DNA of 64,000 bases. Source: Romanomermis culicivorax. Its lineage: Eukaryota > Nematoda > Enoplea > Mermithida > Mermithidae. This document shows positions 17,040 to 63,774 of the stretch, one piece after another. How positions within the stretch are numbered: the stretch's first letter is position 1; the number at the start of each line of letters is the position of its first letter. The stretch spans positions 992,001 to 1,056,000 of the forward strand of contig CAWUHX010000081.1 in assembly GCA_963922205.1 (NCBI GenBank), given 5' to 3'. The notes beneath the pieces are model-generated. The model saw only the letters and a program-made list of their open reading frames with translations. It did not search any database and was not told the origin of the DNA. The translations under genes were made by a program, and so were the position numbers.

Positions 17040-19184
17040 ATGATACAGCTAATTTCCAGAGCGTTGATCCTATGCGTGGTGATTTCCACGATGACATCCG
17101 CGCTTGGTGAGTGTACATAATGTATGAAATTCGACAGAACTCTAGAAACTGAATTTTTAGGAGTATACACTCCAAAGCCATTAAATCAAAAACTGTCTGA
17201 TTTTTTTTAATAAATGAAACAGATGACGTATTCAAGAAGCCCTGAATATAATACCCATTCAAATGCACAAACTGTAGATCTTTGCATTTCCAGGATCAAT
17301 ACTAACATTTGCAGGTGAGAATCATATCTATAGTATTTGCATAAACGTCAGAAATTTTGTGGTTCTTATGCCTTATCTTACAACAAAAAATTGAGTAGTG
17401 TAAAAACATGGTATGAATTCCAGCTGCCTGCAGAAGAACGACAGTGAATAAAAAATGAGTATTTTATTTAATGCGAAATGGATTCAAGAAAACTCTTGAT
17501 TAACACAGCTTGATGACAAGTGTTTTAACATTCATACGAATATCAAACAAAAGCGTGCCATTAATATTTCATTAGCTATCCACTGCTAAATCTGATGTTT
17601 GAGTCGTGGATTTTTTCCACGATTCACTTTGTCCACAGACAGGACCGATACTTTTTGTAAACATATAAAAAACTTGCTGCACATAATGTGCCAAAAAAAT
17701 TTCATGTGAGGATTTCTGGCCTTCTGTTAAGAAATTTATTCAGTGAGTTTCTACTGACGAGAGGATTTTCAGGTTTAGATTCTAGAGATTTGCACGTTGT
17801 AATGAATTCTATAGCCGATAGGTATGCAATTAATATTACACAAGTCTCTTTGTCCATATGCCATATTTACACTAACATCATTTGTTCATACGCCATATTT
17901 ACACTAACATAACATTTACATAAATTTCTACAGTAGTTAGTTAGCCCACCTGATCTCAGCAACGATGAAAGATAAAAAGATGCTGAGACATGCTATCGAT
18001 AGATGATTATCAGCATGACTATTTGAAAAACGTTTAACTCTAATGCCCAATGAAATACACAATTATGAATTTTGATTAAGTTCTAGAGCCCGCAGTTTGA
18101 AAGAGGTGCAAGATCGGATTACCTCCCTGAAATCTGATTTTGAATTTGTCCATATCTGCTGTAGTTTCCTGAGATCACGTGTAGGTGAACTTTCGATTGT
18201 TTGATGCAAATTTCAGAGTAAAGAATAACTATGGGCAGAAACGTTCGATGTAACATTATTCAGGTTGCTATGGACTGTCGAATACATGATTGCAGAATAA
18301 TTCTTCGTGAGAGTAGATGGTCAACTTCGGAAATACGAACCACTGAAACTTTAAATATATATTCTTTTATTTGCTGTTTTGATCAGCGTAATAGTGGATT
18401 TGGACAGAAAATTTCATCATTATCTGAAATAAGACATGAAATAAACCTACATCCTTTGTATCACTCAGCAAAAATATGCCTTCTTCTGGTATAAAAGATA
18501 ACTCCTGCAATGCGTTTATACATGATTTGCACAATCAAATCGCTCACAATTCATGAATTCCTCACAGATCATTCTTGCACACTTACTCCAAATTCGTTTT
18601 TCAAATTATATGAACAAGATCACTCCGATTCTGTCATGAAATTTTACCTATGCGAAAAGTTTTCTGAAAATCTTGCTTGAGGAAGTTCGACTACAATGAT
18701 CCAAGCTTGCTTAAAAAGCACATGCAGATATTAATTTTTCTTGCCTGAAAATTTCGTGGGACATTGCTAGCATTGCTGACGTCAGATCTAGTGTAATCTT
18801 TTTTACATTTCCGGGACTCTAATACTGTAAGTCACGTGAACACCAAAAGTTTTAGTGCGATTTTTTCGCCTCTCCTTAGAATTGGAAGACGAAGACGCAG
18901 TCAAGACCTACTGCGCCCCGGATGAAGAAGCCCGCAACCCGTGTACATGCTGCAAAATGCGCTGCTGGTACGATACGCACCAAGACATGGTTAAAAAGTT
19001 GGGAACGGCGGCCACCGAGGATTGGGGCGAACACGAAGTTTTGAAGACCCTGAACCGCATGAAACAATGCACGCGATTCATGTGCCAACCGATTTGTAAG
19101 CTAGTCAAAAAGAGTCAAATTACCGATCAACAACAACACCAGCCGGATTTTGATGTGCCCAGGAATTTGTTGTTTCCATTGTGA
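17040..19184 (+). CDS. Secreted cysteine-rich protein, CxCCKxRCWYD family
   Basis: Exons: 17040-17106, possibly a 21-nt microexon 17294-17314, and 18880-19184. Exon 1 encodes Met plus a hydrophobic signal peptide (core ALILCVVIS, ending TSAL) and ends in phase 1 at gtgagt. The last exon starts in the matching phase after ctccttag. The mature part is acidic (ELEDEDAVKTYC), then PCTCCKMRCWYD, then LNRMKQCTRFMCQPIC, and a polar tail to TGA. The microexon lies between cag and gtgaga and is in phase, adding seven residues. Total length is 123 residues without it and 130 with it. Eight or so cysteines suggest a disulphide-bonded extracellular protein. It shares the core and intron phase with the exon at 312-604, about 18 kb away. 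I do not recognise the family and give no function. Confidence 0.7.
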
Positions 19185-29015: not shown

Positions 29016-32000
29016 TTACACACTAAACATGAATTGATCTGATACAACATTGCAAATGTCCATGAAAGGCACAAATTTGACCTTATCCACGGAGTCCTCG
29101 CCGCAAGTCGTGTTAACCATGGTGACGCCCACTAAATAAAATATATCACCAATTTTCAATGAAACGCTCGACCATTCTAGAACCTGACAAGGCATTTCTT
29201 CTTCGAGTTCTAAACATTTAATATTGTGAGTTTCAATCGCGTCCGACGGGAAACAAGTTTCTGATCGAGAAATTCGGGCCGACAGAAGTCGATCGACGGC
29301 CGCTGGCAACATTTTCGAGCTCGCATTATAAACGGCGACCAATAAGCCGCAATTCGAGACGTTTAAATTTGCATATTGGTCGCAAAATTCCGAAGGAGGG
29401 ACGTTTATTTCGTGAATTTTCGGCGTAAAATTTATCGAACGATTCAATTCCAATTTGGCCAGGCCGTTGAAGCGACCATCGATCGGTTGAACGGATCGGA
29501 CAAACATCCATTGATCCGAAATTTTCAGCGAATTGTTGTGCGACTGGAGGCAATCGGATTTTGCGTACAAATGTCTGGAAAGATGAAAAAACTATGGTGG
29601 TGGCTATCATAACTACGCGCCAAAGAATTTGGAAGGGAAATCAAACTAATTACGTCTGGTTGCAATATTACGCTTTCATGGGATGTGCAATAAGAGCCAT
29701 TACAGTGTTCATAAATCTGAATAAAAAATACAATTCCGAATATCTAGTTCCATACATTGATTTTGACTTCGGATTCAACAAGGTTTTATAACAAAATATT
29801 CATCCGGAAAATTTGAGCAGATTTTCGATGTAGATGCGTAGAAAATTTGGGATTAAGGTGAAAATTATTCAAAATCAAGTTTCTGTGCTTACTGACTTCG
29901 TGAGAATTTCTTCAACGTTGTATAAACAGATTACAGTTGCAGTTAAGTTGAAATTCCAGAGATCTGTGAATTTCTCGTATTCTGACTTACAGTACTCATC
30001 ATAACTGATCGTGAGCTAATCTATTTTTCAGAAGTTCGACTTTGTTTGAAACGATCGTGAATTTAATTAATTTGCCCAAAATATCATGAACTTTAGATTT
30101 ATGAAAGATGGAATGCGGGTACATTGTACCTTTCTGAAAGAATAATTCCATTGCACGATTTTTCGCCGTTTATCAAACGTAATTGCCAAGGAACTGTCAG
30201 ATTTTTTGCGATATTGAACGAAAATGGGTCGCACGCATCTAATTGCTCATTATCTGGACAAATACTTCTTTTGCAGCATTGTTGATAAGGTCGGACTTTT
30301 CGGCAGGGATGAGCAACGCCGAACTGAAAACACAAAACTGTAGAGTAATGAAAAGATGCCAAGGAAATCCTCCTGTAGCACTCTCTGGGCTCAGAAGTAT
30401 TTCGGGGTGCAGCATTCTCCCCGTGGTACTAGTCAAAGGGTTCGTATCCGACCAGTTTTAAATCTGAATGAGATGACCACACCTAGTCAGTAGTGAGAGA
30501 TACGGCACTACCCAGGATTCTCTTAGACGAGAGTGGAGCACCAGCGTTCTCGTGGATAATTGGAATGAACGGCGGAATATTTTTTGACGAAAGAAATTTG
30601 AGAAGTAAGACTTCATAACCTCCACATTATTCTAATGATCCACTTTCCATGAACTATATATCATATCCGCACTTTTAGCCACTTCATTCCACAGATAGAC
30701 TAACTTTTCTAATGCTTTGCATTTTAAATTTAATGCGCATAATGTGTACGTACTTTGCTCTATACAATAAACTCAGCACCTCTAGCACTAGTTTTCACCT
30801 TCTTCGAGCAAAATGATTAGCCAATGGTGGAGAAATCACGCAAATCAACCTGTAGAACCGTCTTCCGTACTCACATAAATACAGGGTGTCTAAAAAAGGC
30901 TACCCCTAATATTTTTCTATAACTTTGCTTTTGTTTGATCTTTAACATGCGGTCGTTTGCATTACATACCCACACCACTAGCTATCTTCGGGCAAGCTTT
31001 GGTTCCATTTCATAATCCGTACAGTTAATAATTCAAATTTAACTAAAAAGATTTTTAGCATGCCTCAGCTCTGCCAGTTAAAAATTAATGAAGCCATTCA
31101 TGAGTCTTCTATGCGGCTGAAGCTCGTTAGTCAAGCAAAAGATGGTCACATAGAAACGAAATTATTGTGATTTGCACATTTGATGTGTTATTGTTTCAGG
31201 TTACATGAATTTTTTTATCGTTTAATTGAAAATAATAATAATTAAGCGTTCTGCTGAAAAGTGTTGTTGGGATTTGTAAAATGTATTTTGAATAAAAACT
31301 AGCGGTTCAGAAGTTATGAAATCCAGCAAATTTGTGGCTATATGTTTGGTATATCGATCACAGAAAACGGCAAGAGAAAATATTGAGTTGGAAAAAAGTT
31401 ATGCAACAAAGACGAGGGTAGCGTTTTTATATTTTTAATTTTTTTTGTATTTTTTTACTATATATTTTTTAAATATTATTTTATTAACTTTTATATTTGA
31501 TAGAGTACGAGCCACTATGCTGACTCCAACAAAATCGGCAATTTTCATCTTTTTATTTTTCATGTCTTGGAAAAGTTCTAAATTGTTCAAAATTCAGCTA
31601 AAGTCAATATAATGATTTTTTATGATGCTCTGTTTCCAAGTTGACTTTTGATCAATATTTTTACAATCTCGTCGAATATTTTACAAAAACTTTTTGCAAA
31701 TAAGATTTATGATAGTCTCCGTACTCCATATCCAAACCAGCTCATCATTTGTTAACAGAAACGTGGGCACCTTGGAATGAGAAATAGGCTACATTAGCTT
31801 TTGAAATTGTTCAACAATGTGAGTTCCGTATAACTGATGCGTCATCCGAAACCTTTTAACGGCTGATACCTGCATTATTCCCTAAAATTTGCATACCAAG
31901 GGGCACAAAGAAACGCAATTGTAGTCTCCACTGCCGGACAGGTCACAAGTGCATTTGGCGAGGCAGTCTTTTTCGAAAATAATCCCAGCTTCTACGGATT

Positions 32001-32112
32001 TTCCGCTGCCGATGTCGCACGATTTAGCAAAGACGCCTGGTGAAGTTTGGCTCACAAGGAGTAACGATGAAATTATAGAAAGCGCTAGTAACATTGTTGA
32101 AATGAGAGTCAA
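29016..32112 (-). CDS. Secreted VWC-domain / inactive trypsin-like (S1) protein
   Basis: Minus-strand exons: 32112-31897, 30323-30130, 29574-29016, with junctions in phase 0 and phase 2 (frame continuous). The product is 322 residues. Residues 1-29 are a signal peptide. Residues 32-94 are a cysteine domain with the order C..DC..KC-TC...C..LCP....C....QCC..C, typical of von Willebrand factor type C; the exon 1/2 junction falls inside it. Residues 118-322 follow the S1 trypsin fold: PWQLRL, then CNGIILSER, a LAKLEL strand, CQ near 266-267, and FYLVGV. The triad is gone. The His site reads AKSDC (Asp144), the Asp site reads NGLAKL (Gly174), and the Ser motif reads CQVLEW (Glu270). The activation IVGG is also absent. 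It should be extracellular and non-catalytic, perhaps a binding or scaffold serine-protease homologue. The fusion depends on the long first intron being real. Confidence 0.65.
30324..31896 (-). other. Intron 1 of the VWC/pseudoprotease gene
   Basis: The donor is gtatgc and the acceptor ttttcag on the minus strand. The intron holds a slightly GC-richer patch at 30360-30560 and, at 30883-30910, a CAGGGTGTCTAAAAAAGGC sequence resembling one end of a Tc1/mariner element. I could not find the second end. Confidence 0.4.
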
Positions 32113-47989: not shown

Positions 47990-50900
47990 ATGGATTTCAT
48001 GATTTCGTTATTCGGCAGTGATCAAACAGGCAAACAAAAGGTGCGTAAAAAACGAATAACTCACCGTTACAATGAGAAAAACGACGAAAATGACTCTACG
48101 TCGCTAATCGCCTCCGGCTCTGCGGTCAAATGCACCAAAGTGAAGCACATGCCGCCCGAAGAAGAAGAAGGAAATGTAGAATACAAGGTAGTTTCATATT
48201 ATTCAAAAATCGATCTTCACAAATGACTTTACTGCTAAAAAGTCAATCGCTTCATATTCGATTTTGAAAAAACTATTGCAATGTGTTATGCACACAGGCC
48301 CTTAGCTAGGCGAGAGATCATGCCCTCCTTGCGGAGGAAAATGAATTTTTTCTTCCCAATAGATGTCCCAGTACGCATTGTTTTGCATTTCTGAAATCGG
48401 AAATGTTCAAATTTTCCCGTGATTTATAAAATGTAAATTATCATTCTTGGTGCAAAGGTCGGAGCCGAAAAGTGTTCCCAATAATCAGATTTCTCAACTT
48501 ACTATGTTTAAGATACCAAAAACTGAATGCTATAACGTGACAAAAAATTTTGGCTCAAAACGCGGCAAAATGAATATAATTCGATAGAACCCGTCGAACA
48601 CTTTTCTTAGCATTCTATACTTCAATTTTTTAGTGAAAAAAAGTCGAAATGATGATTTGCACATAGGGGGTAGGTGGCGAACCCCCTTACCTGAGACCCT
48701 GGCCACCGCACCTGGCCCAAAAAATCGTCAGACACCCCCCCTGAACTTTTTCCAAGACAGATTTTTTGATGATTTTTGTGCATAGTATGTACAAAAAATT
48801 GGCTTGCAGAACTTTATTTGTTTTTTTGCTCGCCCACCCCTTATCCCCATGAATAAAAAGTCCAAGCGCCCTCTCCATGGAAATTTCTTGCTGTGCATGT
48901 CTGGTGTAGAATACTGGTTACGGTTGTGTATCCACGATTCGCAAGTATTACACTGTCGTAGAGCAGCTTTTTTGGTCGAAAACGACTTTTTTGAATCGAA
49001 ATATGTAGCACATTTGAAAATAATTGATGTCGAGCATGATTTTTCGTTTTTGGAGGCGAAAAACATTTTCAATACTTCCTCGCCCATTCTCCGAAATTTC
49101 AGAATAGTGGCTATCGCTCCCATACCTGTATGAATTCAGTATGGGGTGAGATCCATTGTCATGGATCCACGCCCATAATGAATAATTTTTACTCGTACTT
49201 CGAAGGTTCTTAGCGCAAAAAATCGTTTTTGTCCAAAAAATAGACGTTATTTCATAATTTTTTTTTGAATTTCATAAACTGTCTGGAATTTCATACACTG
49301 AACATAATTTACCGAAGTTTGCTGAAATATATTCTTTTAGCTTAAATTGGTCAATCCTTCGCCCAGCCGTTTTCAGCATTTAGTTACTCAAATGAAATGG
49401 CGACTCAGAGAAGGGCAAGGGGAAGCTATCTATGAAATCGGCGTCGAAGATGACGGGCGTTGCACCGGGTTGACTCAGAAAGAAATGGACGCTTCAATGT
49501 CTACCTTACGGCGTATGGCTGTCGAGTAAGCATATTGGTCTTTCATTCGCACTTAGCCACTAAACAGCTAAAGGTTATCGCGCTATATTTTGGTTTTGTT
49601 TGTTTCTGTGTATTCATTTTATTACACATATTCAATTAATTAGATATGTTCGATAAACGGCGATCAAAATTTTCATTCTTACAATTTCAGGCTTAATGCA
49701 CTGCCAATCGTCTTGAGAGAGCGCGAAGTTAGCGACAACAATCAAAATCGGTTTGTTGCTGAAGTCCTCGTTCGGCGAACGTCCGATCAACAACAGGTTC
49801 TTCAGAATTTTGACTTTGACGTTATTGAAGTGGCCATTATCGATTTTTTTTCGTTTTGTAGTTCATTGACTTACGCGTCGCCGTTTTAGGGGCTGCCGAC
49901 GCCGGGAAATCAACCCTATTGGGTGTTTTAACGCAAGGTGAAATGGATAACGGGCGGGGAAAATCGCGCTTGAATTTATTCAGGCATTTACACGAAGTCC
50001 AAACGGGTCGCACGTCTTCCATTAGCATGGAAATTTTGGGTTTTGACGCAGAAGGCAAAGTAAAACCTGACGGAATACGCTTTCAGTAGAAATCTACTTT
50101 TCTGCGTCATGTTTATTGGAAATTCAGAACGATTTTGTTCTTGTATTCCAATTTTTTCAGACTCTGCAGCATCAAAATCATAGCGTTGAAGAAATTTACG
50201 ACAAAGCTGCAAAGTTAATCACGTTTATCGATTTGGCAGGACATCAGAAATACATGAAAACCACTTTATTCGGGCTTACGGGCTATAAACCACATTTCGT
50301 TGCCCTCGTAGTGGCTGCTAATATGGGAATAGGTAACTATAAGCAAGTCTCTCAACATAATGATGATCTGAACATCATTTTAGCAACTCATTATATAGTA
50401 GTTATTTGTAAAAATAATGGTCCATAATTATCACGTTCTGAGTGACAACTATCTTTCAACGTCACTCACATCTGTAAAAAATTATTTTTTATAGTTGGAA
50501 CAACAAAAGACCACATTGCTTGGGCTGTTGCGTTGGAAGTTCCGTTTTTTATTATCGTCACCAAAATCGATAAAATCAGGAACGGCTTGAAATTGGAAAA
50601 ACTCTTAAGTGGTTTAGAATTCTTCCTCAAGCAGCCTTGCTATTCTAGAATATGCGCCCGAGTCCGAACTGAAGACGACGCATTGACGTTGGCTGCCAGT
50701 TTCAACTCTACAAAGTGAGAATTTGAGAATTTAACGTCGTGCTACGTACACCAGAGTTTCCAAAGATCAGATTTTTAGGTAAGGGTAAAGTTGAGAATTT
50801 TCAGGGCTAGCGTCGCTAAGTGGCCACTAAATATACCGAAATCAAGCCCCCAGTGATAAATCTTTATGATTTCGGGTAGAGGTAATAGCCCTCATACATC

Positions 50901-53900: not shown

Positions 53901-55186
53901 AAACAGGCTATAACTCCTTTGTTGATATTCTAAGCACGCAGGTTCTGTGCAAAAAGTTGAAAGAAAATACTCACAATTATAGCATTCTCAAATCAAAAGT
54001 ATAAAGTGGAAAATCATTAAATCTTAAGTTGAAGAACCTTCGTTTCTTTTAAATCATTAGCTAAGGATTAAGAAATTGGAATGTAGCAATTTTTACTCTG
54101 CAGAATAGCCAGTGCTCTATTATAATTTTAAACATCGAAATTAGTCTAGCAGTTTTAATTATCCTACATCATTTTCAAATGAGCCCGAAAATTCAACAAT
54201 ATTCGTAGGATGGCGATTGACCGTGCATCGCAAAGCTAATAGTTTATTTCCTGGAGTTATAGTTTTGACTGCTACCTAGAACAGTCATTCTGAGAAAAAA
54301 CGCGGTCGCGTACCCTGTTCATAATTTTTACGGTCGTCGTCTTTTTTTCCGAGGCTCATTTGGAAAGGATGGACTCGAAGTGAATGATCTAAAAAGTTAT
54401 CGGCGTGTAGTGGATTGACTTTTTTGTTGCAAAATACATAAATTATCCCATAATTTTATACAGAAAAAATGGAAATTTCTTCCCGAAAAACATCAACAAC
54501 CAAAAAATAGGAGAAACCTGGAAAAGTCAGAGGGTTTGGTCTTTGAGAATCTCTATGAACCCTGCGCTATTCAGTTCTTTACATTTCTCGATTTTTCAAT
54601 TTTTTTGAACACTGGAATGACAGTATGGTCAAATTCGAATGTTAACTTTGAAATGATTTCTCAACAGCTAGGAATTGATTGATTCTCCCGTCCAGCCTAA
54701 TTTCCTCAAGAATCTTATGTATAATTTCATGCATTTAATTTTTGTAAGTACATATTTCAATTACTTCCGGCCAGTTCGAAATGAAATTATTGCAAAACCT
54801 TACTCGATTTATGAAAATGTGCTCAATTTTTAACGTCCTCGTTTTTCCAGGGTATGGTTCTGATCAGTAACGATTCTTTGTCATTACCTCAAGCCACTGT
54901 CGATTTTGAAGCAGAAATTTACGTCATATACCACCCGCACCGTTATATCGCAGAAAAATTTCAATGTACGGTTTACATTGGTAACGTTTGCCAAACTGCT
55001 GTCATGGTACGTATAAAAACGGATACGTCATCCGTGAGCGTCGGTCAAACGGCTTGCGTTCGGTTCAAATTCGTACGCGTCCCCGAATACATAAACGTCA
55101 GTAGTAGGATCTTATTCCGCGAAGGTCGGACGAAAGGAATCGGGCAAATTACGCGAATATTGACCGACATGAACGAAGAAGATTGA
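47990..55186 (+). CDS. GTPBP2: GTP-binding protein, GTPBP1/GTPBP2 family (complete, 9 exons)
   Basis: Exons: 47990-48187, 49341-49525, 49691-49796, 49862-50059, 50161-50332, 50495-50714, 50995-51127, 51181-51411, 54851-55186. All join in frame to give 592 residues, close to the ~600 of animal GTPBP2. An acidic/basic N-terminus ends [12 protein letters not shown], followed by [20 protein letters not shown], a family signature. The translational GTPase domain starts at 164: P-loop GAADAGKST (173-180; most relatives have GNVDSGKST), switch-I RTSSIS (213-218), DLAGH (253-257) and TKID (309-312) in place of NKxD. EF-Tu-like barrels follow (405-481, 482-592), with NVCQTA and [12 protein letters not shown] near the end. 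Family members act in ribosome rescue and resolution of stalled ribosomes, and mRNA surveillance, in the cytosol. Intron 8 (3.4 kb) is full of transposons. Confidence 0.93.
51564..51997 (-). mobile_element. CATACATGTAA-family element, copy 2 (in GTPBP2 intron 8)
   Basis: It begins CATACATGTAATTGGGGGGG and ends CCTCGGAGCTCCGTTACATG, then TATG, so it is inverted relative to 14009-14412. It contains 'gaccatatggctagccattg' and 'cctatggctagccatatgg' close together, two offset halves of a CCATATGGCTAGCCATATGG palindrome. It also has C runs near 51645 and 51961 and A/T-rich hairpin words between. Non-coding. Confidence 0.65.
52425..52783 (+). mobile_element. CATACATGTAA-family element, degraded copy 3 (GTPBP2 intron 8)
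   Basis: The left end reads ATGTAACGGAGCCCCTAGGT, matching the GC-rich end of copy 1. The right end reads 'cctatggcactcccactcaatacgtgtatgg'. It has the same orientation as copy 1 and is opposite to copy 2, which lies only 430 bp upstream. It is more diverged than the other two. Confidence 0.5.
53236..53515. repeat. G-run / C-run repeat block (GTPBP2 intron 8)
   Basis: Repeated words of the type 'ttggggtggggg', 'ttggggagggggcg' and 'caagttgggggtgg' end in a long C run at about 53483-53492. Open frames run through it on both strands (up to 148 residues) because the unit lacks stop codons. They are not genes. The 'caagttggggg' word links it to the block at 40985-41180. Confidence 0.55.

Positions 55187-55934: not shown

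Positions 55935-63774
<7,840 letters not shown>

Follow-up and report, generated by a model that had tools for sequence, protein, structure and literature searches.

A Romanomermis culicivorax gene predicted to encode a secreted CCN-type VWC module joined to a trypsin-like domain with replaced catalytic residues

The fold of S1 serine proteases can be used for binding, as in the vertebrate inactive S1 proteins HGF, which has kringles, and protein Z, which has Gla and EGF domains. The VWC module occurs among others in CCN proteins, each built of IGFBP, VWC, TSP1 and CT modules, whose VWC domains bind TGF-beta/BMP-type ligands; to our knowledge, CCN proteins have no trypsin-like domain. It also occurs alone, in the single-domain VWC proteins (SVWC) of arthropods, which usually contain eight cysteines. 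These SVWC proteins are small, secreted and reported in venoms, and in the portions of the two papers drawn on here VWC modules and serine proteases are separate proteins (PMC12758981, PMC7930282). Insect clip-domain serine protease homologues (SPHs) of the CLIPA and SPH1/SPH2 type are described, in the sections of the source used here, as extracellular multigene products with an N-terminal cysteine-rich domain and an inactive S1 domain (PMC6901238). In the beetle Tenebrio molitor, 125 inactive serine peptidase homologues with triad substitutions have been catalogued, 23 of them with regulatory domains and 13 with a substituted Asp102; the terms VWC and Willebrand are absent from the main text of that report (PMC11172050). 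Finally, the SMIPP-S proteins of scabies mites from human patients comprise 16 inactive trypsin homologues alongside one active member, Sar s 3 (PMC4930577, as far as the part consulted goes).

Here, we describe a gene from the nematode Romanomermis culicivorax that compares with each of these systems in part. The window, the whole stretch of DNA that was analysed, is 64,000 nucleotides long (contig CAWUHX010000081.1, our C81, positions 992001–1056000), and homology searches covered the 359-Mb source genome, in which contigs and loci are cited below by our own C and L labels. The gene consists of three minus-strand exons that, joined at GT-AG sites, encode a product of 316 residues (Table 1). 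A hydrophobic N terminus (mean hydropathy on the Kyte-Doolittle scale reaches 2.5 across 11 residues) agrees with the signal peptide proposed in a preliminary description of this DNA and suggests that the protein is secreted. It is followed by ten cysteines in VWC order (residues 26–88), a linker Cys97, a P-W motif and then an S1-like cysteine spacing, giving 20 cysteines altogether; seven N-X-S/T sites may be glycosylated. The ten VWC-type cysteines are indeed split by an intron, as described earlier, with six in exon 1 and four in exon 2. Exon 1 had been placed at 31897–32112, of which the end at 31897 holds while the start does not: position 32112 begins a TTG codon, and the ATG lies six codons on, at 32094, so that the earlier residue numbers, counted from the TTG, were 6 too high.

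Table 1. Features of the window gene. Positions are those of the 64,000-nucleotide window.
Feature	Position	Strand	Remarks
Exon 1	31897..32094	(-)	ATG, signal-peptide-like start and first VWC part; residues 1–66; GT donor after 31897
Signal-peptide-like segment	32023..32094	(-)	about residues 1–24; Kyte-Doolittle
VWC part in exon 1	31897..32019	(-)	residues 26–66, cysteines 1–6
Intron 1	30324..31896	(-)	1,573 bases, GT-AG, inside the VWC domain; not in the single-exon paralogues L009, L012, L015, L017, L018
Exon 2	30130..30323	(-)	VWC end, linker Cys97, P-W motif, first trypsin-like strands; stops just short of the His57 position
VWC part in exon 2	30258..30323	(-)	residues 67–88, last four cysteines
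Intron 2	29575..30129	(-)	555 bases, GT-AG, phase 2
Exon 3	29016..29574	(-)	remaining trypsin-like domain and stop codon
Asp138 at the His57 position	29553..29555	(-)	adjoins Cys139 = Cys58
Gly168 at the inferred Asp102 position	29463..29465	(-)	by-eye alignment on a short motif
Glu264 at the Ser195 position	29175..29177	(-)	four residues past Cys260 = Cys191; Leu263 at the Asp194 position

The first intron, given earlier as about 1.6 kb, is supported by its GT-AG ends and by paralogues in which the same region is one exon. Window exons 1 and 2, once joined, align in one stretch to a single exon on C14 (query 18–121, E 1.3e-13) and to another on C225 (query 8–128, E 6.6e-10), as well as to two single exons on C8 (12–128, E 2.8e-8; 9–128, E 2.2e-7). 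In the reverse search, the C14 exon recovered window exon 1 (query 21–69, E 1.4e-6) and exon 2 (query 58–126, E 0.014), the two matches sharing 12 residues where the exons meet. Because single-exon paralogues align across this joint, the first splice is supported independently of RNA. The second intron, of phase 2 and just 5' of the His57 position, is common to the window gene, L009, L012, L015, L017, L018 and the C142 locus.

Scanning the window for Rfam families and for tRNAs gave no match in either case. Elsewhere in the window, two cysteine-rich open reading frames on the plus strand (236–604 and 18840–19184), 39.7% identical over 78 amino acids (E 4e-16) and with no Pfam match, perhaps represent a second small family. 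EF-Tu-like GTPase pieces at 50071–50427 and 54815–55186 (plus strand; sub-threshold Pfam GTP_EFTU and GTP_EFTU_D3) are taken by us for a GTPBP1/2-like gene, and a simple repeat of about 0.7 kb at 56480–57410 translates as (KKER)n from one strand and as (FFLS)n from its complement. On another contig of the assembly, the 1.03-Mb C117, positions 984000–1003000 (L042, L043) hold mitochondrial-type cox1 (519 aa under genetic code 5), nad5, atp6 and cob, with cox1 on the strand opposite to the other three; this segment is either a nuclear insertion or a mis-assembly.

The window gene belongs to a small family. A genome search with exon 3 (E up to 10) returned the exon itself and twelve other places, ten of them at E 9.9e-10 to 2.3e-5. 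The weakest two were on C142 (E 0.08) and C52 (E 9.5); the latter was treated as a chance match and rejected as a family locus, leaving ten closer loci and the distant C142 beside the window gene. A genome search with the C14 paralogue exon gave 11 matches, namely itself, nine of the exon-3 loci and the window, with C142 absent. Three family loci lie on C8 and three on C15, and neither search found a further one on the window's own contig. The exons of C142 resemble the window protein over its VWC region (residues 40–100, E 1.2e-10) and its S1-like region (133–254, E about 1e-10), the E values coming from a three-sequence comparison without composition correction. Downstream of C142 (L044/L045) lies a retroelement-like open reading frame with CCHC zinc knuckles.

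Nine paralogue loci could be joined across exons. Five are open over their full length (L009, L012, L015, L017 and L018), with signal peptide, VWC module and first strands in one exon, and four are broken (L010, L013, L014 and L016); at L011, the first exon was not seen in the stretch examined. The window protein and the five open paralogues, hereafter the six intact copies, share the P-W motif and a C-terminal PF-x-D-x-CN motif, and their alignment has 49 invariant columns, 20 of which are cysteines. Two pairs of loci are nearly identical although on different contigs: L014 and L016 (99.85% over 5.25 kb, with the same disrupted first exon) and L015 and L017 (99.2% over 3.4 kb, 92–93% elsewhere). 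These pairs may be recent duplications or uncollapsed haplotypes, and because of such near-identical copies the number of family loci may be inflated.

The broken copies raise the question of whether the window gene is itself a decaying pseudogene or a mis-joined model, a reading to which the failure of the window protein to match Pfam would also lend itself. It is, however, very improbable, since the window gene has a three-exon open frame with GT-AG sites, homology runs across the first splice, and the window protein, though only 26–27% identical to the other five intact proteins, shares each of its 20 cysteines with them.

Between paralogues, dN/dS was 0.20–0.22 for L009 against L015, L017 and L018, at dS 0.70–0.78, and 0.25–0.40 among L015, L017 and L018, where there are few changes. 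These ratios, computed from the sequences, show purifying selection between these paralogues and apply to them alone, synonymous sites being saturated against the window gene. Values below 1 speak against a role as a feeding, reproductive or host-interaction secretion, multiplied to compete with outside proteases in the manner of scabies-mite proteins, as does the position of the window gene, which is divergent (at the identity just given) and the sole family locus found on its contig. This role is nonetheless suggested by the multicopy arrangement on C8 and C15, by near-identical and broken copies, and by analogy with the comparable inactive multicopy S1 family of Sarcoptes (PMC4930577, in part); we regard it as possible, though on the unlikely side. 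The resemblance to SMIPP-S lies in multicopy inactive trypsin homologues; the part of that paper used here mentions no accessory VWC domain, and, unlike in the mite, no close active relative appeared among the genome matches of exon 3 and the C14 exon.

The N-terminal module is assigned to the VWC type by its cysteines, ten of which are invariant and in VWC order in the six intact copies. The Pfam VWC model PF00093 found no match in the window protein or in the five intact paralogues (E up to 10, with HMMER filters that drop most weak matches), whereas the first exon of the distant C142 locus scored 31 bits against a cut-off of 27.6 and matched CCN3/NOV in the PDB at E 6.9e-7. A VWC profile built from five of the six intact copies gave a single PDB match at E up to 10, again CCN3/NOV (E 0.48), the alignment bringing nine cysteines into register. 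The family spacing, C-x3-C-x-C ... CC-x4-C, agrees with that of NOV, unlike canonical VWC pieces of the same genome, which are spaced C-x2-C-x-C ... CC-P-x-C; hhalign of the family profile against six such pieces gave a probability of 16% (E 0.0016). The structure model of the VWC exon reached a pLDDT of 34.

The VWC module is all that the protein has in common with CCN3/NOV: it combines a VWC-type module with an S1-like domain, has no Pfam match to IGFBP, TSP1 or CT modules, and is thus not a CCN protein. The absence of those modules weighs against a CCN-like binder or antagonist of growth factors, in which the VWC module would bind a TGF-beta/BMP-type ligand while the inactive trypsin domain would offer a second face as in HGF, and so does the multiplication of the family, which would rather be expected of defence or secretion genes. 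In its favour are the CCN3/NOV type of both the VWC spacing and the PDB matches, and the presence of HGF and protein Z among the structural matches listed for the second domain (see below). The accessory domains of these two proteins differ from the one found here. Altogether, we consider such a binder unlikely. The SVWC proteins consist of VWC alone, in contrast to the fusion of a ten-cysteine module to an S1-like domain in the present case.

Sequence and structure comparisons of the second domain point, though weakly, to the trypsin fold. In a PDB search at E up to 10, all 22 matches of the window protein were S1 proteins (best E 0.12), and with few exceptions the match lay within residues 106–151. 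With the family profile, 23 of 25 were S1 (best E 0.016), mostly at profile positions 103–149 with two matches further on, the remaining two being the NOV VWC domain and a mitoribosomal protein. No member of the six intact copies matched any Pfam family, Trypsin (PF00089) included (E up to 10 with the HMMER filters active), and hhalign against three active trypsins of the genome, assembled from exons, aligned the first strands only (probability 2%). A structure model of exon 3 from eight aligned rows was of low confidence (pLDDT 53.6, pTM 0.55). Its Foldseek search against the PDB returned 265 matches with E values up to 10, not one of them below 0.001; the best 50 of the 265 were all trypsin-type (best E 0.02, probability 0.97, TM-scores 0.30–0.37), and the matches listed included factor B, factor Xa, tryptase, HGF, protein Z and two HCV NS3 proteins, chains in complexes being assigned from title and chain length. 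The trypsin-like structure expected in the preliminary description is weakly supported by the type of the matches listed, within the limits of a low-confidence model that covers exon 3 only and of the E values reached. Each of these results is weak but they are uniform, and it is their mutual agreement that persuades us of a probable trypsin-like identity. Because the sequence matches fall mainly on the first strands, we hold the overall reading as a secreted binder with less confidence, and give the pseudogene or mis-join alternative more weight, than we otherwise would.

Given this fold, the catalytic positions can be placed. Asp102 was located by eye on a motif, D-I-A-L-L, that we take as its marker, and Ser195 by the assumed rule that it lies four residues past Cys191. 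The replacement of the triad by Asp, Gly and Glu, reported previously as Asp144, Gly174 and Glu270, is correct in residue type; the residues are properly numbered Asp138, Gly168 and Glu264. At position 57, the window gene has Asp, L009, L015, L017 and L018 have Gly, L012 has Asn and C142 has Thr, so that His occurs in none. At the by-eye Asp102 position, the paralogues have Gly or Lys. At position 195, the window gene has Glu, L009 has Thr, L012 has Pro and C142 has Asp, while L015, L017 and L018 retain Ser; all three triad residues are therefore replaced in the window gene but not in every member, Ser being retained in three of the six intact copies. At position 194, the six intact copies carry Leu and C142 carries Met; none has Asp. 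Ser266, invariant in the six intact copies, was considered as a catalytic serine and rejected: it lies six residues past Cys191 in the window protein but seven past it in the other five, and its counterpart in C142 is Ala. Ahead of the P-W motif, no IVGG-like or Ile16-type activation end was found in the six intact copies, as the preliminary description had stated for the window gene. The three active trypsins of the genome, by comparison, keep AAHC, the N-D-I motif and GDSGG.

Judged by its triad, its activation end and its Asp194 position, the window protein cannot be an ordinary S1 enzyme, and, as far as the fold is accepted and secretion is predicted correctly, it would be a serine protease homologue by definition. 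Triad substitution is shared with the T. molitor homologues, although a change at Asp102, as in the window gene, affects only 13 of the 125 there (PMC11172050, main text). Like CLIPA and SPH1/SPH2, the protein is extracellular (here by prediction), with an N-terminal cysteine-rich domain, an inactive S1 domain and multigene membership; in contrast to them, that domain is of the ten-cysteine VWC type, and the activation cleavage site, Asp194 and the Ile16 end are missing.

These likenesses suggest a cofactor that assembles with an extracellular protease cascade of the melanization or clotting type and requires cleavage between its domains. By analogy, the insect clip-domain SPHs are non-catalytic proteins with an N-terminal cysteine-rich domain that act as cofactors of prophenoloxidase activation (PMC6901238, sections used here), and the genome holds many S1 exons, with at least 156 matches to PF00089 (150 of 347 candidates scored). 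Against such a cofactor, the N-terminal domain is of VWC type and no clip domain, and where cleavage would fall no basic residue precedes an IVGG-like end, whereas clip-SPHs need inter-domain cleavage according to the same sections of that source. A clip domain was itself rejected as an identity for the module, because the ten-cysteine pattern, the NOV match and the C142 Pfam match all indicate VWC, and no clip model was matched in Pfam. A cofactor of this kind is conceivable, and we would rate it as improbable rather than remote.

We consider it likely that the gene encodes a secreted, disulphide-rich, non-enzymatic binding protein with two domains, one of CCN-type VWC and one trypsin-like, as its sequence and the structure model together suggest. 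The loss of the cutting machinery, combined with the small gene family in the genome, indicates that it probably binds rather than cuts. In such a protein, the conserved disulphides would keep the trypsin-like domain in shape and zymogen cleavage would be unneeded; an S1 fold free of the zymogen switch would present a constant surface, with the VWC module as a second binding face, and both domains would bind extracellular partners. Its most likely role, in keeping with that of other serine protease homologues, would be to compete within an extracellular pathway of proteolysis or signalling, or to serve there as a decoy or cofactor. The secreted binding or decoy protein suggested in the preliminary description thus fits the sequence picture, within which the role may be that of a cofactor or decoy of a protease cascade, a multicopy competitor or a growth-factor binder, the data favouring none of the three.

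The earlier statement that no standard family joins a lone VWC domain to an inactive S1 homologue is not contradicted within this genome, IMG/VR, the PDB, Pfam and open-licence papers. A VWC module and a serine protease homologue in one protein were not found among the open-licence papers listed, and a scan of IMG/VR viral contigs yielded 39 pattern matches and no relatives. An active VWC-trypsin was also sought in the genome: PF00093 matched at 18 places on eight contigs, and none of these contigs was among the PF00089 matches listed, a weak test because 150 of 347 candidates were scored and because PF00093 misses the VWC exons of the family except that of C142. Given the scope of these searches, the pairing may already be present in public genomes.

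On our best reading of the available comparisons, serine protease homologues are a known kind of protein, of which the present one, with its CCN-type VWC accessory domain, would be a new variant. More speculatively, and we think it rather doubtful, the genes could represent an undescribed animal family that arose when a CCN-type VWC module joined an S1 domain. That domain would have lost His57, Asp194 and the activation end before the members diverged, leaving extracellular binders that require no activation and might antagonise TGF-beta/BMP-type ligands or S1 proteases. If the fold assignment is wrong, the genes would instead form an orphan secreted family. Inactive S1 proteins are recurrent binding scaffolds, and here the six intact copies lack His57, Asp194 and the activation end at once, in combination with a CCN-type VWC module. 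They would offer a way to study what maintains a protease fold whose sole use is binding, and would give comparative work a defined set of genes to search for in other animals.
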